Assembly: GCA_964036195.1 (NCBI GenBank)
Contig: OZ038459.1
Location: 22,131,206 to 22,195,205 of the forward strand
Direction of reading: 5' to 3'
DNA length: 64,000 bases
Source of the DNA: Sphaerolaimus hirsutus
Taxonomy: Eukaryota > Nematoda > Chromadorea > Monhysterida > Sphaerolaimidae
Positions 8,651-63,418 of the stretch are shown here, piece after piece. Below the pieces are notes generated by a model. That model saw only the letters and a program-made list of their open reading frames with translations. It searched no databases and was not told where the DNA came from. Position numbers and translations under genes: made by a program. The stretch's first letter is position 1. Every line of letters begins with the position of its first letter.

Positions 8651-8842
8651 GTGGCAATCCCAAGCCCTGTAAAGTGTAAAGTAAAGTGTCAAATGTAAAG
8701 TCAAATGCAAAGTAAACTGTCAATTGTCATGCAAATTTCAGTAATAAAATATTTTCTTTTTTGTTTTGATTTACACTTTACTTTACACTTGACTTTACAT
8801 TTGACACTTTACTTTACACTTTACAGGGCTTGGGACTGCCCC
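8651..8842. mobile_element. CWG-targeting palindromic MITE, AGTCCCAAGCCCTG family
   Basis: The palindrome is near perfect. CAATCCCAAGCCCTGTAAAG at the left answers CTTTACAGGGCTTGGGACTG at the right. Arms are tandem words of the type GTAAAGTGTCAAATG. It is bordered by CTG (8648-8650) and CAG (8843-8845). Relatives: 15026-15424, 22958-23096, 24409-24557 and about 44902-45056. Confidence 0.75.
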
Positions 8843-23900: not shown

Positions 23901-26900
23901 CGTTGTGAAGTAAATACATACTCACAACCGTGCTACGCTGGTGCTTCATGTCATTTGATGCAGTCTTGATTCAAAATTAAATTGTCAAATTCATTCTACT
24001 GGCTACTGTTTTCTTCAATGTGCTATGTGTATGTACACAATCAATTAGTTGACAAGTAAAATTTACAAAATTGATACACAAACTTTGAATGCATTTGAGT
24101 TGCCAGGAGTCAGGACTTAATGAAGATAAAACAGGATTCATTCTGGTGAATTCAAATGTGTTTAAATGGTATTTATTTATCAATTTTAGAAGTTTCAGCT
24201 GTAATCTGGTGTGGAAGCCAGGCCAGTTCAATCTATTATTTATGCTTTTTAAAAACCAAATATTTCACATTTTACCCAACCTTGATTATGTGATGTTTTT
24301 GCTCCAATGCAGGCAATTTCAAAACTGTGCACCAATAAGTGGTTACTTTTGCTGGAATTGACGTATTCTGAGCCAAAATTTTCAGTGTTTTAGTGTTCCC
24401 AGGTAACTCTGAGGGCAGTCCCAGACCCTGTAAAATGCCCAGTAAAATGTCAAATGGCATGCAAAGTGTCAAAATACATGTAAAATACCTTAAAAACGGC
24501 AAACTTGTATGTTATTTGACACTTTACAAGACAATTTACAGGGTCTGGGATTGGCACCTGGTGGAGGCACATCCCTTTTCAAAAGTCTCAGTGGCACAAT
24601 TTTTGTTATGACGTCATTCAGATTTGTTGGTGGCATTTCCGTATTCGATTTATTTAGTGCTATGGCTAGTAGAATTTGTGTCGTTGCTTTCTGTGAGTGA
24701 TTGAAGTTAATGCAGATAATTTGTGTTTTTTTGCCTACCGTATTACCTCGAAATACCCCCAGGGGGTTTATAATTTCGCCAGCAAAATTTGAGGGGGGGG
24801 GGGGTTAATTCGAGGGGGGTTTATTCGAGGGGGGGGGGGGTCTATTATTTCGCCAGAAATTTTCGGAAATTCCCCATACGCAGACATAGAAAAATCGAAC
24901 AATTACATAGATGTATATGTGTTTATAGGCATATATAACTGTATATACACATAAACCCTTCCCTAACGTCACTTAGCCATCACTTTTAACGCGTGTTCTG
25001 CATTGTACAGATCACAAACTACGGTATTTGTCATGTACGTTCTCTTTACACTCAGTTTTAGGGGGGGTATTTCGAGGGGGGGTTTATTATTTCCTCAGTC
25101 GAATTTTAGGGGGGTATTTCGAGGGGGGGGGGTAATTCAAGGGGGGATAATTCGAGGTAATACGGTATATTGTTGATAAAACATGATTTTCTAGGTATAC
25201 TCCGCGAACCGTCTGCTACCAATGCATTTTTCTGACGAAAAAAACCTCCACCATGACGTCATCATGAATAAAATGCAAATTGTACAAAAAAAAGAAGAAG
25301 AACGTTTCAGCACAAAATTCCCGCTCGTAGGCGACTCCGCCTTTTTCTGTATTTTCTTTTTTTGTGAAATTGTGCTCATATTGTCCACAAAAACACAATA
25401 TTTTACACTCACATCAATCAAATAGTCATTCGGATTTCCAGTGTCAATTTTTCGCTCAAAAATCATATTTAGTCGTCCATCGGATGTACGCCTTGAATAG
25501 CCAACGCAATCGTTTTCTTTATCTTGGAAAATGTCACCTCGATAATCAGTGGCGCAGTCCTGGGTGGAAAATGTGCGCAGAAATGGTTGTTGTTGTTTGT
25601 TGTTTGTTTGTTGTTGTTGTTTGTTTTTTTTTGTTTTTTTTTGGGGGTAGGGTCATCACAGTGGGGTAAATAATTGAATGGTTGAAGTATATGTTAATGG
25701 CACAGCCAAAAGTTTTAAGCGACTTAAACATGTCTGGCACAGCAAAAAATAGGTTCGTGATGTGTGTGGAAGCGGGCTGGATGTGCGTGAAGCGACCTCT
25801 GTGAAGACACTTCCACACACTTCACCACACATCACGAAGTTTTTCGAGATTGTTTGTGAAGTGTCTTCCACACACATCACCTAACATCACGGAGACCGAA
25901 GTTCGTGAAGTGCACTTCACGAACTATTACAGCATACTTTGCATGGTTCGTGAAGCGCCGGGAAGTGATAACCAGCGCTTCACAGCGTCGGGAAGTGTCA
26001 ACATGAAGACACATCACGACGCTTCACGACACATCATATACCCATTTTGTGCTGTGTGGTGCGTGTTTTACACACGAATAGTGATAATTCGTTTAAAATG
26101 TTGAGAAATGACAACTTTTGCGAATGCACATTTGTCAGCGGTGGTGAAAAATGTGTTGTTTGCCTCATTAACGTTTTGTAATCGTTGACGAAAGTGCACA
26201 TGCAAAAATTGTCATTTGTCAATACTGTGAATGAATTATGATTACATTTGGTGCGTATGCAATAACTGGTCGGTCACTGTGAACCACGACGTGCGCCTAA
26301 AATTGTTTTCGAATTTGAGGCTACTAGGTATTTAAATTCCTGTTCTAAATTTGAGTGAAAAAAGACAAACCTGTAAATCGTCGCTATTCGCTGTTGCCAA
26401 ACAAAAGTCTGCATTTTTCAATGAACCATCCTGAGAAAATCCAACTGCCCACCACGAAATGGACTGAATTCCATCCTGATTTGGCTCAATTTCAACCTTT
26501 AAGTTGGATTTACAGCACAACGACAAATAAAAGTTGAAACGACAAATTTGGTATCGACAAAGTACAAATACACTACCAATGTCTTGAGATATCAATTCCT
26601 AAATTGACATGTTGAAAGCACTCACTAATATCCGAAAAGCTCCAATAGTTCTTGAGATATAAACTTCACGTCAAAATTTCACAATTTGTCGAAAATTCCA
26701 ATGAAAAATGTTGTCGACAAATTGTGAAATCTTGAAGTAAAATTCATATCTTGATAAATACTAGAAATTTTTCAATAATTTTGAACACGATATAGATATC
26801 GGTTAGAGCTACGAACATGTCTATTTAAGGATGGATATCTCTATACGTTGTTGTGATCGGGGTTGGTTTTAGTAAAATTCTTTTTACTAAAATTGTATTT

Positions 26901-28217: not shown

Positions 28218-30941
28218 TTACAGGGTAGTTACTAGGGTAACAATCTCATTTAGAAGTGATTTGTTTTTCAATTTACCAAGCCTATGAAGTTCTATCTCAT
28301 ATTTATTCAAGCATTTCATAAATATGGTAATTATTATGGTGTTTTCATAGCCATTGTTTTTATGACCCTTGACTATAGGTGATATACCGCCGATAAAGTT
28401 TTCCCAGCTAGAAGACAGTCTCAAGCATCTAAGTACATGTCCAAATAAACAGCTAAATTTTACTTGATAATTGTGGTTGCTGTCAAAGTGGGTAACTGTG
28501 ACGCAATTAAAATTAAAGGAATTTCTTTTGTCAAAAAGTTTAGTTGAAATGTAAGGTTTTAAATTTATTGACATATCCAGATAATCGCTACTAGTATCAT
28601 TTTCGTGAGTTTTGTTCAGCGGCAAATTGCTGGGGTAGATTTCTTTAACGATGGTGTCAACACTCTTTTCTGAACCCTCTTTGTAAAAAATGGCTACATC
28701 GTCTATGTAACGAAAGATTTTCAGTAACCCACGTGCAGAATCCGGCTTATTTTTAACCCATAAAAATTCCCTGAACATTAAGCTAGCACAAGCCAAAGAA
28801 GGTGCACTGCTGCATCCCATAGGTATGCCGGAAATCTGCCTCAAAATGTGACCGGCTACGTTTACGTATGAATTTTTGAGTACGTTTCTAGTTAGTGTCT
28901 TAACTTCTTCTATGTCAAGTGTCATTTTTCCGGCTTTGAAATTGTCACTAAACCAGCAATTTTTGAAACCAAGTGCTATTCTTGATTTTTTACTGTGTCT
29001 GAAGCAAAAATCAACTAAACCATCTATATCACTTAATAAAGTACCGTGATCTAGGTTAGGATACAAAGTGGAAAAGTCACCAGTGTAGCACTTAGCTTGA
29101 TATTTACCTCGATGTAGATTCTGCAAGAAGTTCGCCAGCTCTAATGACGAATCCAATGGCCAGTATCCACTGCATTGTAGGCTGTCCGGCTCATAGCTAC
29201 CCACGTAAACTTTTAGATGACGTTTCAGCATTCTGAGAATTTTATGGAGTATTAAGGCAGCCTGTTTGATCGGTGCACGACTACCACCGCAAATAAATCG
29301 GAATTTTGGGGGTTTTTTGTGCATTTTAGGAATCGCGAAAAGTTGCGGGAGTGTTTGAAAGCGATAATCGATAGCTAGGCCCAGATTTTCCACTATTTTA
29401 TTATGCTTACTTAGTACTTCTTCTGCAGTCTCAAAGGTGGGACTATACGTTTTATTGCCTATAATCTTAATACTGGCCCCGTCAACAATTATGCCCATTT
29501 CCTCTGCCATTTTCATGCACATAAATTTACGGCATACTATGACAAAGTTACTGGTCGCTTTGTCAGCTGGTGCCAGGACGAATTTCTTATGTATACCCCG
29601 AATTTTTCGTTTTAGTGCTGTAACGTCCCAGAAATTTCCACGTTCATTTACAAATTTATGCTTAACTTTTTCACACTGTAATCTAATTGTATCTAAAATT
29701 TTGCCCGAAAGATTTTCACGGTGTATTTTCTTTAGAAGCTCATTGGTGCAGGCCTCTAGGGCTGCTAGAGCTTCTTCATAATTGAGTGGCCTGGGCAGTC
29801 TGAATTTCGACCCTTTTGAAAGTAATTCACTTAGAGCAATATCTTCAAGTACATCGGTGTCACCTGTGACAATGTGTTCTAGGTCAGGGTGCTTAAAACG
29901 AGAGGATTTACAGTCACAGGCACTTTCCAAGATGTTTTTCCAAGTACTGGCATCTTTATTCCTCAAAAAGCTGTTATGGTTACAAATAATGTTACTCAAA
30001 CTATCTTTATATTCAAAAGTAACCACTATCTTATTTTTGACGTTCCAGTCCTGACCAAATTCCTCAGTAAGCCACTGCTTATTGAACAGCTTCTGTGGTT
30101 TCAAGATGTCAATACCAGGGTTTTCATACATACATTTAATGTACACTTTCTTACGAATGTCTTCTTTGAAGGTAGACTTACTGGTGCACTTGTTTGAGAT
30201 GAAGGCAATAATTTGCAGGGCTAAAATTTCATCAAGGACACCTAAAGCACTAAAAATTTCGTCAAAGCACAGTGTCAAATCTGAAAGTTCTATTTTACTG
30301 CAGCTGTAAAGTAGTTTTATAATGGTTTCTCTATTAGATAAACTGGAAATAAATAGGTTTAATAATTCTGTTTTAGTTCTATTTTTTCGGTGTCTATTTT
30401 TACGGACTCTGTCATTGTGAAACCTTCTAACAGGCATGGTATAATATGGGCCAGAGGTAACTGAACTAAAATTATCTTTACTCACTATTCCGTAACCTTG
30501 GACTTTAGTGTTAAAACCGAAGGGGAAACAAGTATTCAATTGCTTAATCCACAAAGTTTCTTGAGCGATAAGTTCCGATTTTTGATAGTGACCCAAAATC
30601 CTAATTTTCGGTGTATGTCCGGTCCCAAAAAAGTGCTTACAGAGTTCAGTGCCCAGGCTACCTTTAAAGAAACTTCGTACATGTTCTCTAATACGCGTAC
30701 CTAATGCTCGGCTGGTTTGTCCGACGTATTGTAAACAGCAGTCGGTACATGTTAAAAGGTAGACCACATTGCGTGTTCTGCAATCATATTGTACATTCGG
30801 CTCGCAATGATGTGATAAAAAGCTGTAACCGGTACTGTACACTTTAAAACTATCACTGGAATCGATGTAGGGGCAACTTTTACAATTTTTACTGCACTTG
30901 GTGGTTTTCAGACAACAGTTCTGATCATTGCATATGTCCAC
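28218..30941 (-). CDS. Naiad-type Penelope-like retroelement polyprotein (N-terminal GIY-YIG, C-terminal RT)
   Basis: A single 907-codon frame. Near the N-terminus, cysteine-rich stretches (CSKNCKSCPYI) precede the GIY-YIG nuclease: VVYLL at about 59-63, YVGQTS at 72-77, RIREH at 84-88, and a candidate catalytic Glu at 128 (AQETLW). A CDC motif at 342-344 matches the CxC linker described for permuted PLEs. RT motifs follow: ADKATSNFVIV (about 459-469), IPKMHKKPPKFRFICGG (538-554), an extended fingers insertion, motif A TGDFSTLYPN (620-629), motif B GIPMGCSSAPSLA (705-717) and motif C YIDD (745-748). The nuclease lies before the RT, opposite to canonical Penelope. The frame stays open a little upstream of the GTG used here, so the true start is unsettled. 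No stop or frameshift breaks it, so it could be a young copy. Confidence 0.9.
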   Translation of the reverse strand: MDICNDQNCCLKTTKCSKNCKSCPYIDSSDSFKVYSTGYSFLSHHCEPNVQYDCRTRNVVYLLTCTDCCLQYVGQTSRALGTRIREHVRSFFKGSLGTELCKHFFGTGHTPKIRILGHYQKSELIAQETLWIKQLNTCFPFGFNTKVQGYGIVSKDNFSSVTSGPYYTMPVRRFHNDRVRKNRHRKNRTKTELLNLFISSLSNRETIIKLLYSCSKIELSDLTLCFDEIFSALGVLDEILALQIIAFISNKCTSKSTFKEDIRKKVYIKCMYENPGIDILKPQKLFNKQWLTEEFGQDWNVKNKIVVTFEYKDSLSNIICNHNSFLRNKDASTWKNILESACDCKSSRFKHPDLEHIVTGDTDVLEDIALSELLSKGSKFRLPRPLNYEEALAALEACTNELLKKIHRENLSGKILDTIRLQCEKVKHKFVNERGNFWDVTALKRKIRGIHKKFVLAPADKATSNFVIVCRKFMCMKMAEEMGIIVDGASIKIIGNKTYSPTFETAEEVLSKHNKIVENLGLAIDYRFQTLPQLFAIPKMHKKPPKFRFICGGSRAPIKQAALILHKILRMLKRHLKVYVGSYEPDSLQCSGYWPLDSSLELANFLQNLHRGKYQAKCYTGDFSTLYPNLDHGTLLSDIDGLVDFCFRHSKKSRIALGFKNCWFSDNFKAGKMTLDIEEVKTLTRNVLKNSYVNVAGHILRQISGIPMGCSSAPSLACASLMFREFLWVKNKPDSARGLLKIFRYIDDVAIFYKEGSEKSVDTIVKEIYPSNLPLNKTHENDTSSDYLDMSINLKPYISTKLFDKRNSFNFNCVTVTHFDSNHNYQVKFSCLFGHVLRCLRLSSSWENFIGGISPIVKGHKNNGYENTIIITIFMKCLNKYEIELHRLGKLKNKSLLNEIVTLVTTL

Positions 30942-31872
30942 AGAAAAGGGTGCATTTATGTTTCGGCTGACGCAGTATGTGCGATTGAGAAAAGGGGGAA
31001 AAGCGGAAGAGTTAGTTGTAGTTGTAGCTGGTCAAGTAGACCCCAATGGGTGACCAAACCCAAAGGGCAAAAGGCAGAATGGCCGGTTCTATTGGCCCGC
31101 TAAGGCTTTAGCAGGCGAGCAGCAACCCTAAATAGGGTTCTCACCTTTAATGAACCATAGGGTAGCATGCCCGTCTCCCTCACCGGCCAGCGAGGGACAC
31201 GTTAGAAGCCGCTCTACCCTATTTTCACGGCTAAAAAATTGTAAAAGTTGCCTTTAAATCAGCTGAATAGGCTTACTAGAGGCTAAGGGAAGCAAAGTGA
31301 AATAAGAGCATGTAATATATGCTAGAAAAAGCTGTCTCGCAAGACAGTTCAGGCTGACTAGAACTGTAAACTGTATAAATGCATAAAAACCCCACCATCT
31401 CAGGCCAAAACCGCTTCATTTTAACCATCAAAATCGGGAAGCATGAATTTTCACTAACACAGAAAATTATCGATAAAACGTAAAAAACCAGTAACACGTA
31501 CTGACGCACTTTAACAAAATTCAAAATAAAACACTAAAAATATCAGTCATCTTTAGGCTGCTTGCGTGCCGCGGCTGCATAACTACTCGAGGCGCCTTGT
31601 CCATCACTCGTGCTGTAAGAAGTGTAAAAATGTGTATAAAACATTGCTGTAAATCACTATTGCTACTGAAAGTATACTTAATTATCGCTTTAGACTACAA
31701 ACTGCTTATTATTATTTTTGCATATCTATCAAATCAAAATATCTTTTGCAAAATCATCTTGTTTTCTAATTGCTTTTATAAAATGTAAATAAAATGTCCA
31801 AGAAAATTTTTCCGGATATACGAGAACCGAGTGAAAGACTATTTTATCATGGCGTAAGCAAGAGTAATCAAA
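30942..31872. other. Probable 5' flank of the Naiad-type element, no gene seen
   Basis: It includes GC-richer words (CTCACCGGCCAGCGAGGG) unlike the AT-rich surroundings, which may be the leader of the retroelement. I could not find terminal pseudo-LTR copies within the window. Confidence 0.35.
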
Positions 31873-34127: not shown

Positions 34128-36104
34128 TAGGGTGTCAAAAAATTTTTTTTACGGAAAACGGAAAACGGAAAGGTAAAATTTTTTCACTTTACGGAAAACG
34201 GAAAACGGAAAGGTAAAAAAAAAATTTCTGCCGGAAAACGGAAAACGGAAAGGTAAAAAATTTCACTCAGCGGAAAACGGAAAACGGAAAGGTAAAAAAA
34301 AATTGTTGGCCGGAAAACGGAAAACGGAAAAATGAAATGCCGGAAAACGGAAAACGGAAAGCAAAATTTTCACGGAAACGGAAAAAAATAAAGTGAAATT
34401 AGCACGGTAATAGACAAATTTGCAGAAGGAAAACCTGCATGCAGGTTTGCCTATTTGGCTTTGATTGTGGTAGCTGTACATTCTGCAACTATGGATCATG
34501 CCTGTAACTTCACTTGTAGTTCAAGCTTAACTGAACCAACAAAAAATCATCAAAAAGTAGCCATAGTGGCCATAGGAAAGGAAACACTATGACAATTTCA
34601 CAGTCTAGAAGCAGTGGGAGTCACTGATGACCCCTATGCAATTGATGACAACATTGCAGAGGAGATGATAATAAATAGCATAAAATTCAATGACAACAAC
34701 AAACAATACTATATTGACTGGTCGTATAAAGAGAGTATCAGTAACCTTCCCCAGGGGAAAAGCAGAAGCCTTGGTGTGGTTTAAATCACTGATAAGAAGA
34801 TTCAACAAAGATCCAAACTTATTCGAACAATACTGGAAAGTTTTGGATGACCAACTAGAAAAGGGAATAATTGAGATCTGTGACAACAAAACAGACAACA
34901 AGGGGATTCATTACCTGCCACACCAGCCAGTAATCACGCTGGGCAAATCGACATCATGCAGAATCGTGTACGATGGGTCGGCAGGTAAGCCCAGTTTCAA
35001 CGAGTGCCTTTTTAGACGACCAATTACAACACCATTAACACTGGGCCTACTCCTGAGGTTCAGGGCAGGCAATCTAGCATTAATTGCCGATAATGAAAAG
35101 GCATTTTTGCAAATAGGATTGCATGACCAAGCTAGAGACTATTTACACACAATTTTTCTGGTTGAAAGATGCCTCAAAACCAGTAACTGAAAATAACTTA
35201 ATAGTACTTTGTTTTAAACGCGTACTGTTTGAACTTGTCTGCAGCCCAGCAATTTTGGGAGCAGTCATAAAATACCATTTAAATGTGACAATAAACAACA
35301 TGAATGAATATGAAGAAAATGAAGGGGAACAAAACCAGTTGGCGATGATAATAAACAACATTTACGTCGATAACTTCATCATGAGTGTCACGAATGAAGT
35401 TGAAGCTTTAGAACTATATTACAAAGTCAAAGCGTTATTTGACCAATGTTCTATGAACATGAGGGAATGGCTGTCAAACTCCAGATCAGTCATGAATGAA
35501 ATAGCAGAAAACGACAGGAGTCCAAAGGTGAATAAAATTGTTGCAGTAATGGGCATGAAATAACATCACCAAACAGACATGCTGGCAATATCAACACCAA
35601 AATTGCAAATTGACAGCATCACAACACCAACCAGATGAAACTTGAATAAATTATTGGTGTCAGCATATGACCCAATTGGGTTCACAGCACCTGTTTCACT
35701 GACCCTGAAATCCCAGTTGTCAATGCTGCTCCAAGAGACAAAAACAACACAATGGGATGAGCCAATTGAAGATAAATACAGATTGGAAAAACAATGGAAA
35801 AATGCCAGAATACTGAAAATCGAGCCAGAAAATGGAAAAATGGCCTGGTAAAACGGAAACGGAAAGGTAAAAATTTTTCAGCCGGAAAACGGAAAAATGG
35901 GCCGGAAAAACGGAAACGGAAAGGTAAAAAATTTTCAGCTGCCGGAAAACGGAAAACGGAAAGGTAAAAATTTTTCGGCTGCCGGAAAACGGAAAACGGA
36001 AAGGTAAAAAATTTTCGGCTGCCGGAAAACGGAAAACGGAAAGGTAAAAAATTTTCCTGCGGAAAGGCGGAAACGGAAAACGGAAACGGAAATTTGACAC
36101 CCTA
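34128..36104 (+). mobile_element. hAT-like element TAGGGTGTCA, copy A, with BEL/Pao cargo
   Basis: Ends TAGGGTGTCAAAA and AATTTGACACCCTA. A perfect 8-bp duplication GTTGGCAG lies at 34120-34127 and 36105-36112. Arms of repeated ACGGAAAACGGAAAGG words (about 34150-34390 and 35850-36090) surround retroelement coding debris. Length is 1,977 bp, equal to copy B. Confidence 0.9.
34610..35851 (+). pseudogene. BEL/Pao polymerase fragment inside copy A
   Basis: Frames at about 34610-34745, 34690-35190, 35123-35563 and 35642-35851 together follow the BEL/Pao order. A region before RT (IKFNDNNKQYYIDW) is followed by RT blocks SCRIVYDGSAGKPS, NEKAFLQIGLH, CSPAILGAVIKYHL and IYVDNFI, then the downstream SAYDPIGFTAPVSLTLKS block. 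Frame changes between pieces and a missing protease, gag and integrase make it non-functional. The same breaks occur in copy B. Confidence 0.85.
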
Positions 36105-36265: not shown

Positions 36266-38580
36266 TTGAGGAGTTTGATTCCGAAACCCGTTATCTGCAC
36301 GTTTTTGGGTTTTTTGAAAATCGCATTTGAAACTTTGACATTGGCCCGCGCGGGCATGCTTCAAGTGACAACACTTGCCCGAAACTTTTTGAAAAGTTCA
36401 TGAATTTCTCTACATTTTCCATATTTACAACCCTCTGGCCGGGGTATATACCTAGAGTTATGATGATTTGTTTGACCTCACATCAGCATAAATGCATGCA
36501 GATAACGAGTTTCGGGTGCAAACTTTCAACTGAATTTTATGGAGTGGCACTAGGGGCACCAAACTTGCGCCATTTGTATAGAGTGGTGCTAGGGGCACCA
36601 AAATAGTGCCATTTTTAGGGAGTGGTGCTAGGGGCACCAGAATAGTGCCGTTTTTATAGAGTGGTGCTAGGGGCACCAAAATGGTGCCATTTTTGTAGAG
36701 TGGTGCTAGGGGCACCAAAATAGGGCCATTTTTAGGGAGTGGTGCTAGGGGCACCAAAATAGTGCCATTTGTATTGAGTGGTGCTAGGGGCACCAAAATA
36801 GTGCCATTTTTATAGAGTGGTGCTAGGGGCACCAAAATAGTGCCATTTTTATAGAGTGGTGCTAGGGGTACCAAAATAGTGCCATTTTTATGGAGTGGCA
36901 TTAGGGACACCAAAATAGCGCCATTATCATGGAAATGGTGCTAGGGGCACCAAAATAGTGCCATTTTTATGGAGTGGTGCCCCTAGCACCATTCCATGAA
37001 AATGGCACATTTTGGTGCCCCTAGCACCACTCCATGAAAATGGTGCTATTTTGGCGCCCCTAGCACCACTCCATAAAAATGGCGCTATTTTGGCGCCCCT
37101 AGCATCATTCCATAAAAATGGCGTGATTTTGGTGCCCCTAGCACCACTCCATAAAAATGGCACTATTTTGGTACCCCTAGCACCATTCCATGAAAATGGC
37201 ACTATTTTGGTGCCCCTAGCACCATTCCATGAAAATGGCACTATTTTGGTGCCCCTAGCACCATTCCATGAAAATGGCGTGATTTTGGTGCCCCGAGCAC
37301 CACTCCATATAAAAAGGGCAATATTCTGGTGCCCCTAGCACCACTCCATGAAAATGGCACTATTTTGGCGCCCCTAGCACCATTCCATGAAAATGGCATG
37401 ATTTTGGTGACCCTAGCACCACTCCAACAAAAATGGCACTTTTTTGGCACCCCTAGCACCACTTCATGAAAATGGCACTATTTTGGTGCCCCTAGCACCA
37501 CTCCACAAAAATGGCACTATTTTGGCACCCCTAGCACCATTCCATGAAAATGGCATGATTTTGGTGCCCCTAGCACAACTCCATAAAAATGGCACTATTT
37601 TGGTGCCCCTAGCACCATTCCATGAAAATGGCATGATTTTGGTGCCCCTAGCACCACTCCAACAAAAATGGGACTATTTTGGCACCCCTAGCACCACTCC
37701 ATGAAAATGGCACTATTTTGGTGCCCCTAGCACCAATCCATAAAAATGGCACTATTTTGGCGCCCCTAGCACCATTCCATAAAAATGGCATGATTTTGGT
37801 GCCCCTAGCACCACTCCATAAAATGGCACTATTTTGGCGCCCCTAGCACCATTCCATGAAAATGGTACTATTTTGGTGCCCCTAATGCCACTCCATAAAA
37901 ATGGCACTATTTTGGTGCCCCTAGCACCACTCGATGAAAATGGCATGATTTTGGTGCCCCTAAATCCACTCCATAGAAATGGCGCTATTTTGGTGCCCCT
38001 AACACCACTCCATAAAAGTGTTCACAAGTGGAGTTATTCAAATAAAAAGTCATGTGGAGATAACGAGTTTCGGGTGCAAAGTCACCTGCAGATAACGAGT
38101 TTCGGGTGCAAAGTCACCTGCAGATAACAAGTTTCGGGTGCAAAGTCACCTGCAGATAATGAGTTTCGGATGCAAATTCATAAAAACCAGTACAGATTTC
38201 CTTAACGAGTTTCGGATGCAAACTCCATTTTTGTATGGTGATTTTGACACCTCCATACTAAATCCTTAACGAGTTTCGGATGCAAACTTTTTTCTCTGCA
38301 GATAACGAGTTTCAAGTGCAAAAAATGAAAAATTTTTTTTGTAGATAACGGGTTTCGAGTGCAAACTCGCCTATTTTGGGCTGCAGATAATGGGTTTTGG
38401 ATGCAAACTTGCATTTTTTTCAAAAAACGCTATCTCTGTATCTCGGGAACGGTATGAGATATTGAGAAAATTGTTTTGCTATCACGAAGAAATATATATA
38501 TATATATACGTCAGATCCGCACTTAACTCAATTTTTTTCACTTTTGCACTTAACGGGTTACGGAACCAAACTCCTCAATT
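36266..38580. repeat. 2.3-kb foldback element, TTGAGGAGTTTG ends
   Basis: Left TTGAGGAGTTTGATTCCGAA pairs with right TTACGGAACCAAACTCCTCAA. Next come repeated GATAACGAGTTTCGGGTGCA words (one at left near 36498, about seven at right between 38056 and 38410), and then the 39-bp minisatellite. No coding content is credible. Confidence 0.75.
36535..38020. repeat. 39-bp minisatellite in two opposed blocks
   Basis: The unit holds TGGTGCTAGGGGCACCA with AAAATAGTGCCATTTTTAT between. It runs in one orientation to about 36975, then in the inverse (ATGGAGTGGTGCCCCTAGCA at the turn) to about 38020, roughly 38 units in all. Because 39 is 13 codons, frames stay open for 70 to 150 codons on both strands with 13-residue periods such as NGTILVPLAPLYK. 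Confidence 0.9.
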
Positions 38581-40436: not shown

Positions 40437-40947
40437 GAGTTAAATCAGATAAAAATTACAATTAATATCTCAGAATATCACCCAAAATGGAAATATCTAA
40501 CATTTAAAAATATATCATTGTTTCCTTTTTTCAAGCATACATTTCCCAATATTTTTGGAATGCTACCTACCTAATTGTAAATAATCAGTGTATTTTTGTT
40601 CAACTGAATTTATTATTCACTCGCATTCTGTAGACTGTTGCATTTTGCTCTGACATTCTCCTCAAATTTTCCAAATGTGTTTTGCACAGATTTTTGGTCA
40701 GCATTGCCACAGGGCCATTCAGTGAGATTACTAAAAAATGAAAAAATTAGATATTTTAATTTTTCATGAATAAAACTTCCTGACTCTTAGAAATCTTAGA
40801 AAAAATTGAACTCACATTGTTCATAGTTCTCCAAGCAAATGTGAGCAGCTATGTCTCTGTGCAATTTTGCAACATTCATGTCTAATAATACATCTGCAGA
40901 TAGATTTCCACTTGATGTAGGCTTTTCATTGTCTTCCATTGTCGTTT
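40437..40947. other. Non-coding interval
   Basis: AT-rich sequence leading up to the copy B insertion. No exon is supported, although a frame near 40850-40940 is modestly open. Confidence 0.35.
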
Positions 40948-42924
40948 TAGGGTGTCAAAAAATTTTTTTTACAGAAAACGGAAAACGGAAAGGTAAAATT
41001 TTTTCACTTTACGGAAAACGGAAAACGGAAAGGTAAAAAAAAAATTTCTGCCGGAAAACGGAAAACGGAAAGGTAAAAAATTTCACTCAGCGGAAAACGG
41101 AAAACGGAAAGGTAAAAAAAAATTGTTGGCCGGAAAACGGAAAACGGAAAAATGAAATGCCGGAAAACGGAAAACGGAAAGCAAAATTTTCACGGAAACG
41201 GAAAAAAATAAAGTGAAATTAGCACGGTAATAGACAAATTTGCAGAAGGAAAACCTGCATGCAGGTTTGCCTATTTGGCTTTGATTGTGGTAGCTGTACA
41301 TTCTGCAACTATGGATCATGCCTGTAACTTCACTTGTAGTTCAAGCTTAACTGAACCAACAAAAAATCATCAAAAAGTAGCCATAGTGGCCATAGGAAAG
41401 GAAACACTATGACAATTTCACAGTCTAGAAGCAGTGGGAGTCACTGATGACCCCTATGCAATTGATGACAACATTGCAGAGGAGATGATAATAAATAGCA
41501 TAAAATTCAATGACAACAACAAACAATACTATATTGACTGGTCATATAAAGAGAGTATCAGTAACCTTCCCCAGGGGAAAAGCAGAAGCCTTGGTGTGGT
41601 TTAAATCACTGATAAGAAGATTCAACAAAGATCCAAACTTATTCGAACAATACTGGAAAGTTTTGGATGACCAACTAGAAAAGGGAATAATTGAGATCTG
41701 TGACAACAAAACAGACAACAAGGGGATTCATTACCTGCCACACCAGCCAGTAATCACGCTGGGCAAATCGACATCATGCAGAATCGTGTACGATGGGTCG
41801 GCAGGTAAGCCCAGTTTCAACGAGTGCCTTTTTAGACGACCAATTACAACACCATTAACACTGGGCCTACTCCTGAGGTTCAGGGCAGGCAATCTAGCAT
41901 TAATTGCCGATAATGAAAAGGCATTTTTGCAAATAGGATTGCATGACCAAGCTAGAGACTATTTACACACAATTTTTCTGGTTGAAAGATGCCTCAAAAC
42001 CAGTAACTGAAAATAACTTAATAGTACTTTGTTTTAAACGCGTACTGTTTGAACTTGTCTGCAGCCCAGCAATTTTGGGAGCAGTCATAAAATACCATTT
42101 AAATGTGACAATAAACAACATGAATGAATATGAAGAAAATGAAGGGGAACAAAACCAGTTGGCGATGATAATAAACAACATTTACGTCGATAACTTCATC
42201 ATGAGTGTCACGAATGAAGTTGAAGCTTTAGAACTATATTACAAAGTCAAAGCGTTATTTGACCAATGTTCTATGAACATGAGGGAATGGCTGTCAAACT
42301 CCAGATCAGTCATGAATGAAATAGCAGAAAACGACAGGAGTCCAAAGGTGAATAAAATTGTTGCAGTAATGGGCATGAAATAACATCACCAAACAGACAT
42401 GCTGGCAATATCAACACCAAAATTGCAAATTGACAGCATCACAACACCAACCAGATGAAACTTGAATAAATTATTGGTGTCAGCATATGACCCAATTGGG
42501 TTCACAGCACCTGTTTCACTGACCCTGAAATCCCAGTTGTCAATGCTGCTCCAAGAGACAAAAACAACACAATGGGATGAGCCAATTGAAGATAAATACA
42601 GATTGGAAAAACAATGGAAAAATGCCAGAATACTGAAAATCGAGCCAGAAAATGGAAAAATGGCCTGGTAAAACGGAAACGGAAAGGTAAAAATTTTTCA
42701 GCCGGAAAACGGAAAAATGGGCCGGAAAAACGGAAACGGAAAGGTAAAAAATTTTCAGCTGCCGGAAAACGGAAAACGGAAAGGTAAAAATTTTTCGGCT
42801 GCCGGAAAACGGAAAACGGAAAGGTAAAAAATTTTCGGCTGCCGGAAAACGGAAAACGGAAAGGTAAAAAATTTTCCTGCGGAAAGGCGGAAACGGAAAA
42901 CGGAAACGGAAATTTGACACCCTA
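40948..42924 (+). mobile_element. hAT-like element TAGGGTGTCA, copy B, with BEL/Pao cargo
   Basis: Same 1,977-bp structure as copy A. By eye I find only two substitutions between them (near 40973 and 41544). Flanks GTCGTTT and GTCGTTAT fit an 8-bp duplication with one base lost at left. Confidence 0.9.
41430..42671 (+). pseudogene. BEL/Pao polymerase fragment inside copy B
   Basis: The blocks and frame breaks match those in copy A (pieces 41510-42010, 41943-42383 and 42462-42671), with one Arg-to-His change early in the first piece. Sharing of all breaks shows the cargo was already dead before copies A and B separated. Confidence 0.85.
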
Positions 42925-43983: not shown

Positions 43984-45803
43984 TCATGAGCAGAAGTATT
44001 GTAAAAGTGAAATGAACAAACCAGTTTGCATGCTTTGATCCTTTTTCAAAGTTATCTTCATTGAAGTTGTTTGAATTTCTGCATCTCTCAATTCTTGTTT
44101 TGCAACTTGTGTCTCAGAATTTCTCAATTCCTGTTTTGCAACTTGTGTCTCAGAATTTCTCATTTCAATCTTTTCTGAGACTTTGTCATCTTTTATTGGC
44201 ACTATATTTTCACTTTTCTTGACACTCATAGTAGTAGAATGATCTATGGTCAATTCCACAAGTTGAGAAGCAAAAAAAATAGAAGTGAGAAGTAATTAGA
44301 TGAAGTGAAAAGTGAAGTGAAATGAGTAGTAGAAATTGATGAGAAAGGTAAATTAGAAATGAAAAGTTAAATGAGGTGTAAGACTTTAAATTTAGATGTG
44401 AGATATAAATGAGAAGTAGAATGTTTGACTTTTCACTTCTCATTTTTCGTCTCACTTCTAAATTTACTTTCTTTTGAATTTTTGTTTCTCATTTCACTTC
44501 TAAATTTACCTTAATTTTTTACATCTCACTTCTAAATTGTTTTTTTTTTCTTCTCAACATGCGGAATTGGCACCTGTTGAAGCACTGGATTCAACAGCTT
44601 CAAATGTGGCATCTTCATATGAAGTTCCTTGTGATTCAGGGTCTTTTACAATCACACTAATCACACTTTTCAGTGACTCATTGTGAGGATTTGATTTTGA
44701 CCATTGTCCACTCAGTTCTGTTTCAACTTCAGTGACCACACTTTCATTGGTTGAAACATTCGGAGTGACCACTGCTATTTTTGCTTGTCTTTGAATTGGG
44801 TCCTTTGAAGATTTATGACCGGGGATGAGATTTAATTTGCCTGATGTGTTTTTTCAGGCTGCCCGATTCGTTTTGTAATGATTCATAATGTCAATCTTCT
44901 GGGGAGTCCCAGACACTGTAAAATGTTCTGTAAAATGTGAAATGTCATGCAAATTGTGAAAAGTCATGTAAAATACCCTGTAAAATGTCAAGGGACTAGT
45001 AAAAATATAAAATAAAATGTGACATTCTACAGGGAACTTTACATGTCTTTAGACACTTTACTCTTTAGACACTTTATATCGTCTAGGAGACTTTCAGTGG
45101 GAGTGGAACCAGGCAGCCTGGAAAAAAACCCCGCTTTGGACTGATTAAATCTCTCACCAGGACCCTGTCCAGACTTATCATTAACACTCTCTACAACTCC
45201 TCCATCCAGACTTTCTGCACCAGTTTCTGACATGGCAGGCACAATGATTTGAGCCTGATGGATATCAGTTTCTGGCAGTTCATCACTAATACTGCTGAGT
45301 TCATTTGGACTGCGCACTATTCCCAAAATGGATCTGGGGTCAATTCTGAAAGTGGAGTAGTGAAAAACCGTGAAGTAGTGAGAAGTGAGAAGTGAAATGA
45401 GGTGTGAAATTGCAAGTAAAAAGTCAAAAGTGAAGTAAAATGAAATGGGGAAATGATATATAAAAAGTTAACAGCAAAGTAAACTTTCACTTGTAATTTT
45501 ACTTTTCTTTTAACTTTTAACTGACCATTTCACATTTCACTTGTCATTTTATTTCTCACTTCTAAAATGTTATTTTTTACTTCTCCACTTTCGGAATTGG
45601 CACCTGGTTGATGGAGTGTCTGATGATATTGATGGGTCACTTTTTATTGGAACACTTGAAATGTCCGACTTTTTGGCCATCGATTTCTGGGCAGGTTTTT
45701 TTGTTGCGTCAGCCTTTGGAATTGGATCGGATGTTTTTGTTTTCAACTTTGATTTTACTTTTTTGCCGCTTGAAGAATGCGCCGTCAATTGAGACAGGTA
45801 TTT
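43984..45803 (-). CDS. Unknown multi-exon gene, Ser/Thr/Lys-rich protein, introns are MITEs
   Basis: Exons in coding order: 45803-45604, 45333-about 45057, 44898 (or 44842)-44574, and 44243-44022 (open to 43984). Visible sequence is low-complexity and polar: HSSSGKKVKSKLKTKTSD, DELPETDIHQAQIIVPAM, then a tandem RNSETQVAKQEL motif in the last exon. No domain is recognised. Introns 45603-45334 and 44573-44244 are exactly palindromic elements flanked by CAG. Junction codons are AG|A (Arg) and G|AT (Asp), so the frame continues. The middle intron also contains a MITE (about 44902-45056). With its simplest borders exon 3 has one in-frame TGA at 44856-44854; a donor at A|GTAAAG and acceptor ATCAG|GC avoid it. 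The 5' end is not seen. Confidence 0.65.
44244..44573 (-). mobile_element. GTGCCAATTCC MITE that is exactly an intron
   Basis: On the coding strand: TTCAACAG|GTGCCAATTCCGCATG ... CTTGTGGAATTGACCATAG|ATCATTC. Arms are AAGTGAGAAGT / ACTTCTCACTTCT words. The element gives GT; the last three bases TAG stand where other copies have the duplicated CAG. The phase 1 to phase 2 join is in frame. Confidence 0.83.
44902..45056 (-). mobile_element. AGTCCCAGACACTG MITE within the middle intron
   Basis: On the coding strand its 3' end is TTTTACAGTGTCTGGGACTC followed by CCCAG|AAG, matching the family at 8651 and 24409. The 5' end is diverged, so the exact splice border is uncertain. Confidence 0.6.
45334..45603 (-). 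mobile_element. GTGCCAATTCC MITE that is exactly an intron
   Basis: On the coding strand: TCAACCAG|GTGCCAATTCCGAAAG ... TTCAGAATTGACCCCAG|ATCC. Inverted ends and AAGTGAAAT-type arms are as in 44244-44573. The exon phase is 2 and the next exon supplies A, giving AGA with the frame intact. Confidence 0.85.
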
Positions 45804-46850
45804 CTGCGGAGTTGTAGAATTTTTTGTTTTAATTGTTGATTTAAATGTTTAAGTTGATTTTTAGACACTGTATTAAATACATCGAACTTACATCGAACTG
45901 TCAACGAATAAAACACAACATGATGAATGTTTTTACTTATAAATATTTGACACAGCACAGCACAACACCTTTTTTTTGAAACAACCAACTAAGTATTTTG
46001 GAAGTTGAAAAGTGACACAAAGTGTTAAGTGAGGTAGATTAAGTACCAGTGTTGGCAAGTTATATAAGTATAACCTTTTAAATGAGCAGTAAATTTTTGA
46101 TAGATTGAGAGATTGACGTCACTTGTAAATCTACTTGTCAATTTTACCACTTGAAGTTTGTACAATTTTATAAGCGCACCTGTAAATTTGCCGATGATTT
46201 TCTCTGGCTCGTTTCCTGTAAATTTCTCTCGACATTTTTCTGTTTCTCGTCAGCTATTATTTTATCCGGTTGAAAGGATAGATCTATCAAATTTTTATTC
46301 ATTTTTTGTTGTTTTTCGATTTGTGTGAAATTCTATTCACGAACACAGGTACATTAGCTGCGAATATATTTTGCATTTGACGTGTTAATTTGTGATGCAT
46401 GCATTCGTTTTACTTCCGTTTCCATGGAAACCATAGGCAACATTCGTTTTAGGTGTTATATACACTGATTTGCCGTATCCAGGATTGGTTGATAAAAATT
46501 AATGTTAAAAATGTAAAAAGGTTTATTTTCATGATCACTGTTTGAGCAATTTTTTGGGAACCCATGTACTGAAGCATTTGATGAAAATGAGCAACATTTC
46601 TTTAAAATTTAGTTAAACTAGGTACATTTATAATATTGTGCATTGCCTTTGATTTTGAAGCATTTTTTAGGAATTTGCCAACCCTAGGTACAAATGAATA
46701 GACTTCCATTTGGGAATTGAGCAATTTCAATCAACCTTGGAATACAATGGTGCCGATCCAAAAGTGCCTAAAAATAATGTAAAAATGCCTGGTGCTGGCA
46801 TCAAGTCGAACCACGGTGAAAAAGTGCTAGCGCCAAAAAAGTGTCGTGAC
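45804..46850. other. Non-coding interval
   Basis: About 46491-46687 resembles the CAGGGTTGG family (CAGGATTGGTTGATAAAA ... TTTGCCAACCCTA) but shows no 8-bp duplication. No exon is supported. Confidence 0.4.
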
Positions 46851-48345: not shown

Positions 48346-48363
48346 TGTGTAAATGAAAAAATA

Positions 48364-48474
48364 ATGAAAAACGCATCCGTGGATGATCTAAATTTGCCAA
48401 AAAAATGGACGAAGTGGTGTGAGTGGGTGAAAATCTTTCGTCCAACTGTTGATCAGATGTGTCTGACGGATCAG
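48364..48474 (+). CDS. Candidate exon interrupted by a MITE
   Basis: A frame containing LNLPKKWTKWCEWVK and ending ...TDQ stops at CAG (48472-48474), where a palindromic element begins. After the element, CAG|AAGACAAGAATGATGG continues in phase 0. The left border here is CAG|GG, not GT, so canonical splicing would fail. The protein is not recognised. Confidence 0.25.
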
Positions 48475-49374
48475 GGGCCAGTTCCGCAAGTGGAAAAGTT
48501 AAGAGTTAAAAGTCAAGAGTTGAGTAAAATGACAAATGGCAAGTTAAGAGTAAAGTTAAATGATAAATGATGAGTTAAGAGAGAAGTGTAAATTTAAGAG
48601 TAAGACCCCGTTTACACGGATTTTTTGTGACGACTCGACAAAAATAAAACGTTCAATAAGTTGAGTAAAAATGTTCCATATTTATGAGAAAAAGTGGTCA
48701 ATGATACATCTTACCTAGGCGAATATGCATGTCAAATTTCACAATCGTGCTTGTAGCTCATGAGTTAGAGGCGTTTGAAAACTTTTGCAGTTGTCGGACA
48801 GTTGTCGGACTGTCTCCGACAGCCAGCGACAATAGCAAACTTTTTTTGAACGTCATAAATCTTGAGCTACAAGCACAAGTCTGCAATTTGGCCTGCATAT
48901 TTGCTTAGGTAGAAGGTATACTTGACCACTTTTTCTAATGAATATGGAACCTTTTTACTCAACTTATTGAACGTTTTCTTGTTGCCGAGTCGTCACACAA
49001 AATCCGTGTAAACGGGGTCTAAAGTTAAATGACAAATGATTAGTTAAGAGATAAGAGTAAAGTTAAGAGTCAAGCAAGTGTATCCAAATATTATTTTTTC
49101 GTATCCAGATCTTATGTTTTTCTATCCAAATCTCATTTTTGACATATGATTTGGATACAAAAACATAAGATTTGGAAACGAAAAAATAAGATTTGGATAC
49201 ACTTGCTTGACTCTTAACTTTACTCTTATCTCTTAACTAATCATTTGCCATTTAACTTAACGCTTGTCTCTTGACTCATCATTTATCATTTAACTTTACT
49301 CTTAACCTGCCATTTGTCATTTTACTCAACTCTTAACGTTTAACTCTTAACTTTTCCACTTGCGGAACTGGCAC
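48475..49374. mobile_element. GGGCCAGTTCCGC MITE with CAG duplication
   Basis: CAG|GGGCCAGTTCCGCAAG ... CTTGCGGAACTGGCAC|CAG, with CAG at 48472-48474 and 49375-49377. Arms are AGTTAAGAGT / ACTCTTAACT words. It was later split by the Harbinger-like element 48604-49019. Without that insertion it is 484 bp. Confidence 0.82.
48604..49019. mobile_element. PIF/Harbinger-like MITE, copy 2
   Basis: Ends GACCCCGTTTACACGG / CCGTGTAAACGGGGTC. TAA is duplicated at 48601-48603 and 49020-49022. The core has the same GACGACTCGACA and TTGTCGGACAGTTGTCGG words as 709-1126. Confidence 0.85.
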
Positions 49375-49408
49375 CAGAAGACAAGAATGATGGACCGTCG
49401 AACTTGCA

Positions 49409-49760
49409 TACCGTATTTCCTCGAAATACCCCCCCCCCCTCGAAATACCCCCCCTCGTTTGACCCCCCCCCCTCTCGAGACCACTATGAAACAATCACCC
49501 CCCCCCTCGAAATACCCCCCCCCCCAAATTGAGTGTAAAGGGAACGTACATGACAATAACTGTAGTTTGTGTTCTGTGTACTGCAGAACACAAACTGCCA
49601 TATTTGTGATGTACGTTCTCTTTACACTCAATTTTGGGGGGGGGGGGTATTTCGAGGGGGGGGGGGTGATTGTTTCATAGTGGTCTCGAGAGGGGGGGGG
49701 GGGTCAAACGAGGGGGGGGGGTATTTCGAGGGGGGGGGGGTATTTCGAGGAAATACGGTA
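49409..49760. mobile_element. ACCGTATTTCC MITE with near-perfect palindrome
   Basis: Both halves are almost exact inverse copies over some 170 bp, including ACCACTATGAAACAATCACC and its partner. TACCG / CGGTA termini, TA on each side. G-runs reach 13. Confidence 0.8.
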
Positions 49761-50710: not shown

Positions 50711-50906
50711 GTGCCAGTTCCGCAAATTGAGAAGTGAGAAGTAAAATGGCAAATGCGAACTGAAATGATAAAAGTGAAGTGAAATGGCAAGTAAATTGGC
50801 AAAAACGAGATATTTAAAAAAAGAAAAAGTAAGTTCTCTTCACTTTTGCCATTTTACTTAGCTTTTGCCATTTTACTTCTCACTTCTTAATTTGCGGAAA
50901 ATGCCC
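50711..50906. mobile_element. GTGCCAGTTCC MITE, CAG-flanked
   Basis: CAG|GTGCCAGTTCCGCAAATTG ... TTAATTTGCGGAAAATGCCC|CAG (50708-50710 and 50907-50909). With GT at one end and CAG at the other it has the same intron-ready form as those in the 44-45.8 kb gene, but no flanking exon is evident. Confidence 0.75.
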
Positions 50907-50909
50907 CAG

Positions 50910-51144
50910 GGGCAAAGTGCTTTACTCCTTACTTAATGGCGAAGTGCTTAACTCTTTTATCTGAAATTTACGAGTTACTTGATTCTTTCCTCTTAACGTT
51001 TCATTTATAATTTTATATTATTTTGAAGATTACGCTTCAATCTTTACTTTACTCTTTACTTCACTCTTTACTTTTCACTTTACTTTTTACTTTTTGCTTT
51101 ACTTTTTACATTACTCTTGACTTTGCCACTTGCGAAACAGGCCC
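50910..51144. mobile_element. Second CAG-flanked element abutting the first
   Basis: It begins right after the shared CAG (50907-50909) with GGGCAAAGTGC and ends CTTGCGAAACAGGCCC|CAG. Arms are TTTACTTTTTACTTT words. Two neighbours appear to share one target trinucleotide. Confidence 0.5.
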
Positions 51145-53123: not shown

Positions 53124-54263
53124 GAGGCATCTAATTCTAAAGCGGGAATTAGAGCTCAGCGTCGATTCGACGTGAAATGATGACGTGAAATGTCGTCGTG
53201 AAATTAATTACACGAGTGTGGATCATGCTACGGGTCTACAATTTTCTAAGGATAATATATTAATCAATACCTTAATCGTGTCCAATACTGAGTGTTATCA
53301 GCCACAACTAGAGCGAATTGAAAAATTCAATTTTTATCATTTCACGTCATCAACATTTCACGTCACAGTGTCAGGGAACAACTTGACATTTCATGTCAGA
53401 CTGCTGCTTGCAATAGTCTGACGTGAAATGTCAAGTTGTTCCCTGACACTGTGACGTGAAATGATAAAAATTGAATTTTTCAATTTGCTCTAGTTGTGGC
53501 TGATAACACTCAGTATTGGACACGATTAAGGTATTGATTCATATATTATCCTTAGAAAATTGTAGACCCGTAGCATGATCCACATTTGTGTAATTTTTTT
53601 CACGACGTCATTTCACGTCATCATTTCACGTCGAATCGACGCTGAGCTCTAATTCCGGCCTAAAAGTTGACAAGTCCACAAAATGCGATTTTGAGTAAAT
53701 CGCATTTTAAGTTTCAGACCCAATTCCAGACCCATAGTGCATGTCCAATTTGCTTTCTCTCATGTTTTACATTAAGTTCCATATGTTGACAAAGTCTCCA
53801 ATTTTCAGCCCCTAATCTCAACCTATATGTGAAAAATGGGGTGTCCATAAAATTCCATTTGGTCAGAGCAAAACTGTTTTGGGGAGGGTAATGGACTTGT
53901 CGACTTCTTGCACGTGAACGTTTTTGTTCCCGCCCGCGTTGGTCCTGCCTTATTGGAAATTTATGCACTTGTCGACTTTTAGAAATCGGTGCCCATAGTG
54001 GACTTTTCACATTTCTTGCATTTTTCCCATAAAAAGGATGCAGAGGATGGACTTGTAGAATTCAGCCCAAAACTAAGTGGACTTGTCGACTTCTTGCCCA
54101 ATTTTTTTGCATTTTTGTCCAAAAATGTCAATTTTGTCACTATGCCATATGGGCATGTGAGGTCAAAAAATTTATGAAAAATATGTAGCCCCAGATGACG
54201 TTTCCGGGCCTAACTCAAAATTTTCATATTTTTCACTTGTCGACTTTTAGAATTGGATGCCTC
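53124..54263. mobile_element. Outer element with GAGGCATC ends, split by a Harbinger-like MITE
   Basis: The left arm GAGGCATCTAATTCTAA (53124-53140) continues as AAGTTGACAAGTCC only after removal of 53141-53663. Together they mirror the right arm CTTGTCGACTTTTAGAATTG through GGATGCCTC (to 54263). Internal words are GTGGACTTGTCGACTTCTTG type. Confidence 0.7.
53141..53660. mobile_element. 520-bp near-perfect palindrome, PIF/Harbinger-like, copy 1
   Basis: Arms of about 250 bp: AGCGGGAATTAGAGCTCAGC at left, GCTGAGCTCTAATTCCGGCC at right. TAA is duplicated (53138-53140 and 53661-53663). Almost nothing separates the arms except TGCTGCTTGCAATAG. Confidence 0.88.
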
Positions 54264-54337
54264 ATTTATATTCATAGCGGATTTCAAAATTTTGGTTGAC
54301 TGCCAAGTTCCACAAAAATATGGGGTCTCGTCCTTTA

Positions 54338-54857
54338 AGCGGGAATTAGAGCTCAGCGTCGATTCGACGTGAAATGATGACGTGAAATGTCGTTGTGGAA
54401 TTAATTACACGAGTGTGGATCATGCTACGGGTCTACAATTTTCTAAGGATAATATATGAATCAATACCTTAATTGTGTCCAATACTGAGTGTTATCAGCC
54501 ACAACTAGAGCAAATTGAAAAATTCAATTTTTATCATTTCACGTCATCATCATTTCACGTCACAGTGTCAGGGATCAACTTGACATTTCACGTCAGACTG
54601 CTGCTTGCAATAGTCTGACGTGAAATGTCAAGTTGTTCCCTGACACTGTGACGTGAAATGATAAAAATTGAATTTTTCAATTCGCTCTAGTTGTGGCTGA
54701 TAACACTCAGTATTGGACACGATTAAGGTATTGATTCATATATTATCCTTAGAAAATTGTAGACCCGTAGCATGATCCACATTCGTGTAATTTTTTTCAC
54801 GACGTCATTTCACGTCATCATTTCACGTCGAATCGACGCTGAGCTCTAATTCCGGCC
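54338..54857. mobile_element. 520-bp near-perfect palindrome, PIF/Harbinger-like, copy 2
   Basis: Same length and sequence as copy 1 with a handful of substitutions. TTA is duplicated (54335-54337 and 54858-54860). Confidence 0.88.
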
Positions 54858-63007: not shown

Positions 63008-63418
63008 GGGCCAGTTCCGCAAAATGAGAAGTGAGAAGTGAAATGGCAAAGGCGAAGTAAAAGCGCAAAGGCCAAGTGAAATGGCAAGTGAATTGGCAAA
63101 AGCGAAGTAAAAAAAAGAAGTAATTTCTCTTCGCTTTCACCATTTCACATTGCCTTTGCGCTTTTACTTCGCTCGCGGCTCACGGGAATTTCCAACGCAG
63201 AACAAAATTGTGTCGCGCAGGTAGTGATGGAAGGGCGCCGTGGCGCAGGCGCCATTTAAGGGCGCCAGAGTGTTGTACCATTGCACCACTTGTGCACAAC
63301 AAACTTTTGTTGCGCTAAAAACTGCGCGACACAATTTTGTTCTGCGTTGGAACTTATTACGACCCTTACTTCGCCTTTGCCATTTCACTTCGCACTTCTC
63401 ATTTTGCGGAACTGGCAC
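63008..63418. mobile_element. GGGCCAGTTCCGC MITE with CAG duplication
   Basis: CAG|GGGCCAGTTCCGCAAAATG ... CATTTTGCGGAACTGGCAC|CAG (63005-63007 and 63419-63421). Arms are AAGTGAGAAGTGAAATGG words. Inside are a hairpin (CAACGCAGAACAAAATTGTG and its inverse) and a TAGTGATGG / GGCGCC fragment at 63222-63270. Confidence 0.8.

Follow-up and report, generated by a model that had tools for sequence, protein, structure and literature searches.

Three introns in two genes of the 64-kb window (the whole stretch of DNA analyzed) coincide with palindromic elements carrying a target copy at their 3' ends, and they are very probably spliceosomal introns derived from small nonautonomous DNA transposons that inserted into exons. 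Two of them, E1 and E2, interrupt a minus-strand gene, here called gene 1. The third, E3, belongs to a dopamine beta-hydroxylase (DBH)-like gene, where it is backed by protein homology. These introns look like a fresh example of a known route of intron birth, in which a transposon lands ready to splice. In the proposed mechanism, a transposase would cut a CWG site and duplicate three bases, so that each insertion would carry CAG on one strand. The element itself would be asymmetric, one end starting with GTG and the other with GGG. In an insertion with sense-strand CAG and the GTG end leading, the 5' splice site would be formed by the CAG at the end of the exon plus the GTG of the element, and the second, downstream CAG would supply the 3' splice site through its YAG. 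The excised stretch would equal the insertion, and the mRNA would therefore be unchanged.

E1 (minus strand, 45334 to 45603) consists of an element at 45603 to 45337 and a 3' target copy, CAG, at 45336 to 45334. E2 (minus strand, 44244 to 44573) consists of an element at 44573 to 44247 and a 3' target copy, TAG, at 44246 to 44244. Their lengths, 270 and 330 nt, are each a multiple of three. Both begin with GTGCCAATTCC directly after CAG, and their 3' ends are CCCCAG (E1) and CCATAG (E2). The borders of E1 read CAG/GTGCCAATTCC...GAATTGACCC/CAG (at greater length, CAG/GTGCCAATTCCGAAAGTGGAG...CTCCACTTTCAGAATTGACCC/CAG), and those of E2 read CAG/GTGCCAATTCC...GAATTGACCA/TAG (at greater length, CAG/GTGCCAATTCCGCATGTTGAG...CTCAACTTGTGGAATTGACCA/TAG). 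The termini of E1 match as an inverted repeat at 20 of 24 bases, and both elements are near palindromic over their full length (67% for E1 and 69% for E2). Identity of 75% over 123 aligned columns at the 5' ends places E1 and E2 in one family (family 1). The coordinates and ends of both elements were as given in the first-pass annotation. Its further claim, that exact CAG flanks surround both elements, held for E1 and for the 5' side of E2; the 3' copy of E2 is TAG. The duplication around E2 therefore has one mismatch, in a triplet that could still function as an acceptor.

Retention of E1 or E2 introduces in-frame stops, and their removal leaves a single frame open, with junction codons AG/A (E1) and G/AT (E2), as expected from the earlier statement that removal causes no frame change. 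The proposed model of gene 1 has seven exons on the minus strand: a putative first coding exon with ATG (46180 to 46302), exon 2 (45604 to 45803), exon 3 (45158 to 45333; 3' border, with the donor at 45157, predicted), exon 4 (44574 to 44840; 5' border predicted), exon 5 (44022 to 44243; 3' border predicted), a putative exon 6 with a weak acceptor (40816 to 40932), and a putative last exon with TGA (40600 to 40730). Exons 2 to 5 are open frames, and the terminal CAGs of exons 2 and 4 are the 5' target copies of E1 and E2, respectively. The model encodes 411 residues, with only the terminal stop in the chosen frame and 13 to 35 stops in the other five frames. The exon pair flanking E1 (125 codons) was stop free in 5 of 20,000 mononucleotide shuffles, and the pair flanking E2 (162 codons) was stop free in none of 20,000.

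The element-exact pairs in E1 and E2 combine a CAG/GT donor with a YAG acceptor. A stop-free reading was given by 15 of the 53 nearby GT-AG pairs that preserve the frame at E1 and by 10 of 62 at E2, the element-exact pair included, and element-exact splicing is not singled out by the open frame alone. At E1, an alternative acceptor (TTTCAG), 12 nt upstream of the acceptor at the element end, would add four codons. The gene 1 protein had no significant match in Pfam (best E value, 0.067) or PDB (best E value, 0.6), and its E1 and E2 junctions are therefore drawn from the open frame only. Pfam searches of the minus strand from 36.5 to 46.5 kb gave just two matches, both below their cutoffs and both in the repeat array at 36 to 37 kb. 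The region from 36536 to 37977 is a long array of GGTGCTAGGGGCACCAAAATAGTGCC-like units whose orientation inverts near 36.97 kb.

The arms of predicted intron 3 of gene 1 (45157 to 44841, minus strand) are palindromic at 83% over 24 nt, with more outer similarity visible by eye, and the intron contains a degenerate family 2 piece; the intron borders lie near or within the arms. This intron was considered as a fourth element-exact case and is not claimed, since its borders could not be fixed. Family 2 was found through BLAST with this intron and reading of the matched places.

E3 (minus strand, 24409 to 24557) is a family 2 element at 24557 to 24412 followed by CAG at 24411 to 24409. Its similarity to family 1 is confined to roughly the outer 11 bp, which indicates a separate family. 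The exon before E3 (24558 to 24690, minus strand; 5' border predicted) ends in ...LLKRDVPPP, and the exon after it (24281 to 24408, minus strand; 3' border predicted) begins with ELPGNTKTLKILAQNTSIPAKVTTYWC (ELPGNTK...TTYWC). Downstream of E3, the gene matches the Pfam copper type II monooxygenase domains Cu2_monooxygen (E value, 2.9e-16) and Cu2_monoox_C (1.1e-14), with the matches distributed among reading frames as exons would be; the match to DOMON (0.0071) falls below its cutoff. When E3 is removed at the element ends, the resulting protein aligns with DBH (PDB 4zel, chain A, which we take to be the human enzyme) without gaps over 38 residues (VQLLKPNIPEPELPSDACTMEVQAPNIQIPSQETTYWC; E value, 1e-6, for a 54-amino-acid query). 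A longer query of 137 amino acids across the junction gave an E value of 6.7e-16, with 135 query residues aligned and gaps located away from the junction.

Retention of E3 (149 nt) shifts the frame and introduces a stop. Between two conserved anchors, 27 GT/GC-AG pairs are open and in frame, and three of these reproduce the 36-residue spacing of DBH. One is the element-exact pair, the sole GT-AG pair among the three. The other two are GC-AG pairs, one lying two bases from the element-exact pair and one (24500/24352) encoding a protein unlike DBH. The gap-free homology across E3 is the strongest single support overall, and for E1 and E2 that place is taken by the rule that they share with E3. 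An introner interpretation predicts further copies located exactly at introns, and one such copy, E3, was found. With E3, the rule that applies to E1 and E2 would also hold for another gene and for another family whose outer ends match those of family 1, and DBH homology backs the E3 junction.

The elements could instead be insertions that stay unspliced in genes that are dead or decaying, which is very unlikely. Transcription of both genes is predicted only, and the lack of a recognized domain in gene 1 would fit such decay. However, the other exons of gene 1 keep long stretches of open frame, and 135 query residues from the DBH-like exons align with DBH, which speaks against this reading.

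Outside these introns, three further family 1 copies and two further family 2 copies were recognized in the window. Copies A (48475 to 49374) and B (63008 to 63418) have CAG on both sides on the plus strand with the GGG end first; copy A is interrupted by another insertion at 48604 to 49019. Copy C (50711 to 50906) has CAG on both sides on the plus strand with the GTG end first, and no gene was identified nearby. Copies F (22958 to 23099, minus strand; sense flank CTG) and G (8651 to 8842, plus strand; flanks CTG and CAG) belong to family 2, and their ends were set by eye. The catalog therefore holds eight copies, namely E1, E2, A, B, and C of family 1 and E3, F, and G of family 2, and leaves out the ninth, degenerate family 2 piece in intron 3 of gene 1. 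GTG is found at one end in seven of the eight copies, the GTG-type end of F reading CTG, and GGG is found at the other end in six of the eight. CAG or CTG makes up 15 of the 16 flanking triplets, and both flanks are identical in six of the eight copies (the exceptions are E2 and G), with the ends of F and G placed by eye in these counts. The inverted-repeat match of the ends is 18 to 23 of 24 bases. Family 2 ends in E3 and G are approximately G[GT]G[CG]CARTCCC, with outer bases common to family 1.

Because of the visual placement of the F and G ends, a motif-driven scan is the fairer test. The scan required ends resembling GKGYMARWYCC (at least 9 of 11 positions), placed 70 to 1,200 bp apart, with an inverted-repeat match at 18 or more of the 24 terminal bases. 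It recovered 13 pairs in the window, whereas 100 first-order Markov sequences averaged 0.02 pairs each and never held more than 1; elements of this shape are therefore not a product of chance. CAG or CTG stood on both sides of six of the 13 pairs (G, E3, E1, A, C, and B; identical on the two sides in five) and of none in the 100 random sequences. The remaining pairs were E2, with CTA/CTG, and six alternative or unrelated pairs; F was missed. With a looser cutoff (13 of 24), the 44 pairs in the window were no excess over the 25 to 46 pairs in 10 such Markov sequences.

Only the arrangement with CAG on the sense strand and the GTG end first can splice at the element ends. When each copy is read from its GTG end, the flanks are CAG for E1, E2, E3, and C, CTG for A, B, and F, and CTG and CAG for G. 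All three copies in predicted coding sequence have the splice-capable arrangement, for which the chance is 1/64 if the four arrangements are equally likely, and the opposite arrangement is seen in A, B, and F. Together with E3 in a second gene, this agreement supports the introner interpretation put forward in the first-pass annotation.

Alternatively, the elements may have landed in preexisting introns, with the remaining old intron sequence lost later. Insertion into introns does occur, as copy F is well inside what is predicted to be an ordinary DBH-like intron, with 275 and 218 nt separating it from the splice sites, in a form unable to splice at its own ends, and the family 2 piece lies within intron 3 of gene 1. 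Such a history is nevertheless quite unlikely for E1 to E3: in all three cases there is no intronic base beyond the element and its target copy, and the CAG duplication spans the exon border, as an insertion into an exon would give.

Spread through an RNA stage, with intron copies reverse spliced into new sites as proposed for fungal introners in the available part of PMC9860276, would explain the similar intron sequences within one gene. This route is hardly credible here, as it sits poorly with the inverted termini and the three-base CWG duplication and with copies A, B, and F, whose arrangement is not spliceable at the ends.

Within the preferred explanation, insertion of DNA transposons into exons, the elements may be general miniature inverted-repeat transposable elements (MITEs) without splicing adaptation, and the three introns may be survivors of random insertion whose arrangement happened to splice. 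This version is slightly favored; it is a form of the best explanation rather than an alternative to it, so the likelihoods attached to the different accounts do not sum to one. Five of the eight cataloged copies do not coincide with known introns, and copies occur in both orientations. On the other side, the GTG/GGG asymmetry is common to two families, in contrast to NuwaI ends, which are usually GGG, and may be a hint that a GT at one end was selected for.

For copy C, an alternative right end at 51144 is likewise followed by CAG; C was considered as an intron and is not claimed, because its removal from its open reading frame (ORF) leaves a frame running into other repeat-like sequence. The flanks of copy A (48350 to 48474 and 49375 to 49420, plus strand), when joined, form an open frame (KKWTKWCEWVKIFRPTVDQMCLTDQKTRMMDRRTC), yet A cannot splice at its ends; the joined flanks have no Pfam match and are possibly a broken exon or a chance occurrence. 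No Pfam domain was found on either strand around copies A, B, and C (E values up to 0.1).

In family 1, the left arm is rich in purines (0.66 to 0.75) and the right arm is rich in pyrimidines (0.62 to 0.79; 0.76 in E1 and 0.79 in E2), compared with a window mean of 0.50 (standard deviation, 0.09), and a pyrimidine tract therefore stands ahead of the 3' splice site. Arm composition is weaker in family 2 (0.55 to 0.68), and pyrimidine content near the acceptor of E3 is moderate (0.50 to 0.58, in stretches that include the acceptor CAG itself). The donor bases at +4 to +6 (CCA) are a poor match to the usual donor consensus. Predicted RNA hairpins have z scores of -9.5 (E1), -11.7 (E2), and -8.9 (E3), and in each minimum-energy structure the first four and last seven bases are unpaired. 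Such a hairpin would draw the splice sites together and leave both single stranded at its base. A strong hairpin is expected for any palindromic element and is no evidence of selection.

The CAG target and the GGG end point to the NuwaI group of the PHIS superfamily as the putative transposase source; this group, in the available part of PMC4482050, is described as having a CWG target duplication and terminal inverted repeats (TIRs) usually starting with GGG and as occurring only in animals, in 16 animal genomes. The CWG target duplication and GGG at one end are common to NuwaI, as described there, and the elements of the window, and the fit to NuwaI on the target and one end appears good. Unlike NuwaI as presented in the same part of that paper, the elements have GTG at the other end and are short, palindromic, nonautonomous copies that would act as introns. 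Autonomous PHIS elements carry a DDE transposase and a Myb/SANT protein, and Pfam recognized neither in the parts scanned frame by frame, which were the plus strand up to 19.9 kb and from 46.5 kb onward and the minus strand up to 29.9 kb and from 36.5 kb onward, apart from short gaps near 10 kb. Because the other end differs and the scanned parts held no transposase, the elements are filed as NuwaI-like rather than as proven members. Tentatively, NuwaI-type transposons that target CWG may be preadapted to intron making: CAG always lies on one strand, and a single change from GGG to GTG would complete a GT-AG intron. As the two families share this change, the lineage may recurrently supply new introns in animals.

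Other mobile and repeated sequences were observed in the window. The insertion nested in copy A has ends GACCCCGTTTACACGGATTTT that match at 24 of 25 positions, with TAA on both sides, which fits the TWA targets of PIF/Harbinger given in the available part of PMC4482050. Two stretches of 510 bp with perfect 25-bp inverted ends lie about 1.2 kb apart at 53146 to 54852. A Penelope-like ORF (28221 to 31031, minus strand; 937 codons) has a GIY-YIG domain at residues 89 to 167, N-terminal to a reverse transcriptase match at 708 to 797 (E value, 0.0006, below its cutoff), a permuted order reminiscent of the Naiad group. Two near-identical 168-amino-acid ORFs about 6.8 kb apart (34684 to 35190 and 41504 to 42010, plus strand), which we take to resemble fragments of BEL/Pao retroelements, are each followed by similar CCGTTTTCC-type repeats on the plus strand. 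Together with the DBH-like gene, the Penelope-like ORF and these retroelement-like ORFs point to an animal host, probably an invertebrate. Scans of viral contigs with the element ends gave at least 120 and 112 matching stretches, and none of 232 loci held both ends 60 to 1,200 bp apart; the matches were therefore taken as chance. Neither the family 2 end nor the Penelope-like ORF had a match in these contigs.

Introners are recognized by sequence similarity extending to both splice borders at more than one place, and E1 and E2 show this within family 1, E3 being of another family; signs of DNA transposition, namely target duplication and inverted ends, are present as well. A larger introner survey reportedly dates from 2025. 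Among the matches listed in the literature search, there were no further animal introner cases, and introners were treated together with Harbinger only in a fungal study, as far as its listed text shows. Within animals and land plants, the 2022 survey, in its available part, placed introners in two groups only, both of them animals, and counted introner families of at least five copies per genome (PMC9860276). Three element-exact introns, together with a transposon group whose target would explain both splice sites, make the question of which transposons become introns testable, as splicing insertions would be predictable from target strand and element orientation alone.

The arrangement proposed here has counterparts among known introners. 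Introner families with their own 5' splice site and a 3' site from the target duplication are described for Chrysochromulina in the available part of Gozashti et al. 2022 (PMC9860276, Fig. 2C), and the division of roles is the same here, the element supplying the 5' splice site and the target duplication the 3' site. The Chrysochromulina introners differ in having 4-bp duplications and, in the available part of that paper, no evidence of inverted ends, whereas the present elements have 3-bp CWG duplications and inverted-repeat ends. Introner elements of Amoebophrya, as covered in the available part of PMC7789003, share with the present elements inverted repeats, direct repeats of 3 to 5 nt at exon borders, and a hairpin. 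They were defined on noncanonical introns with varied repeats, whereas the putative introns of the window are GT-AG, with a near-constant target and near-constant ends.
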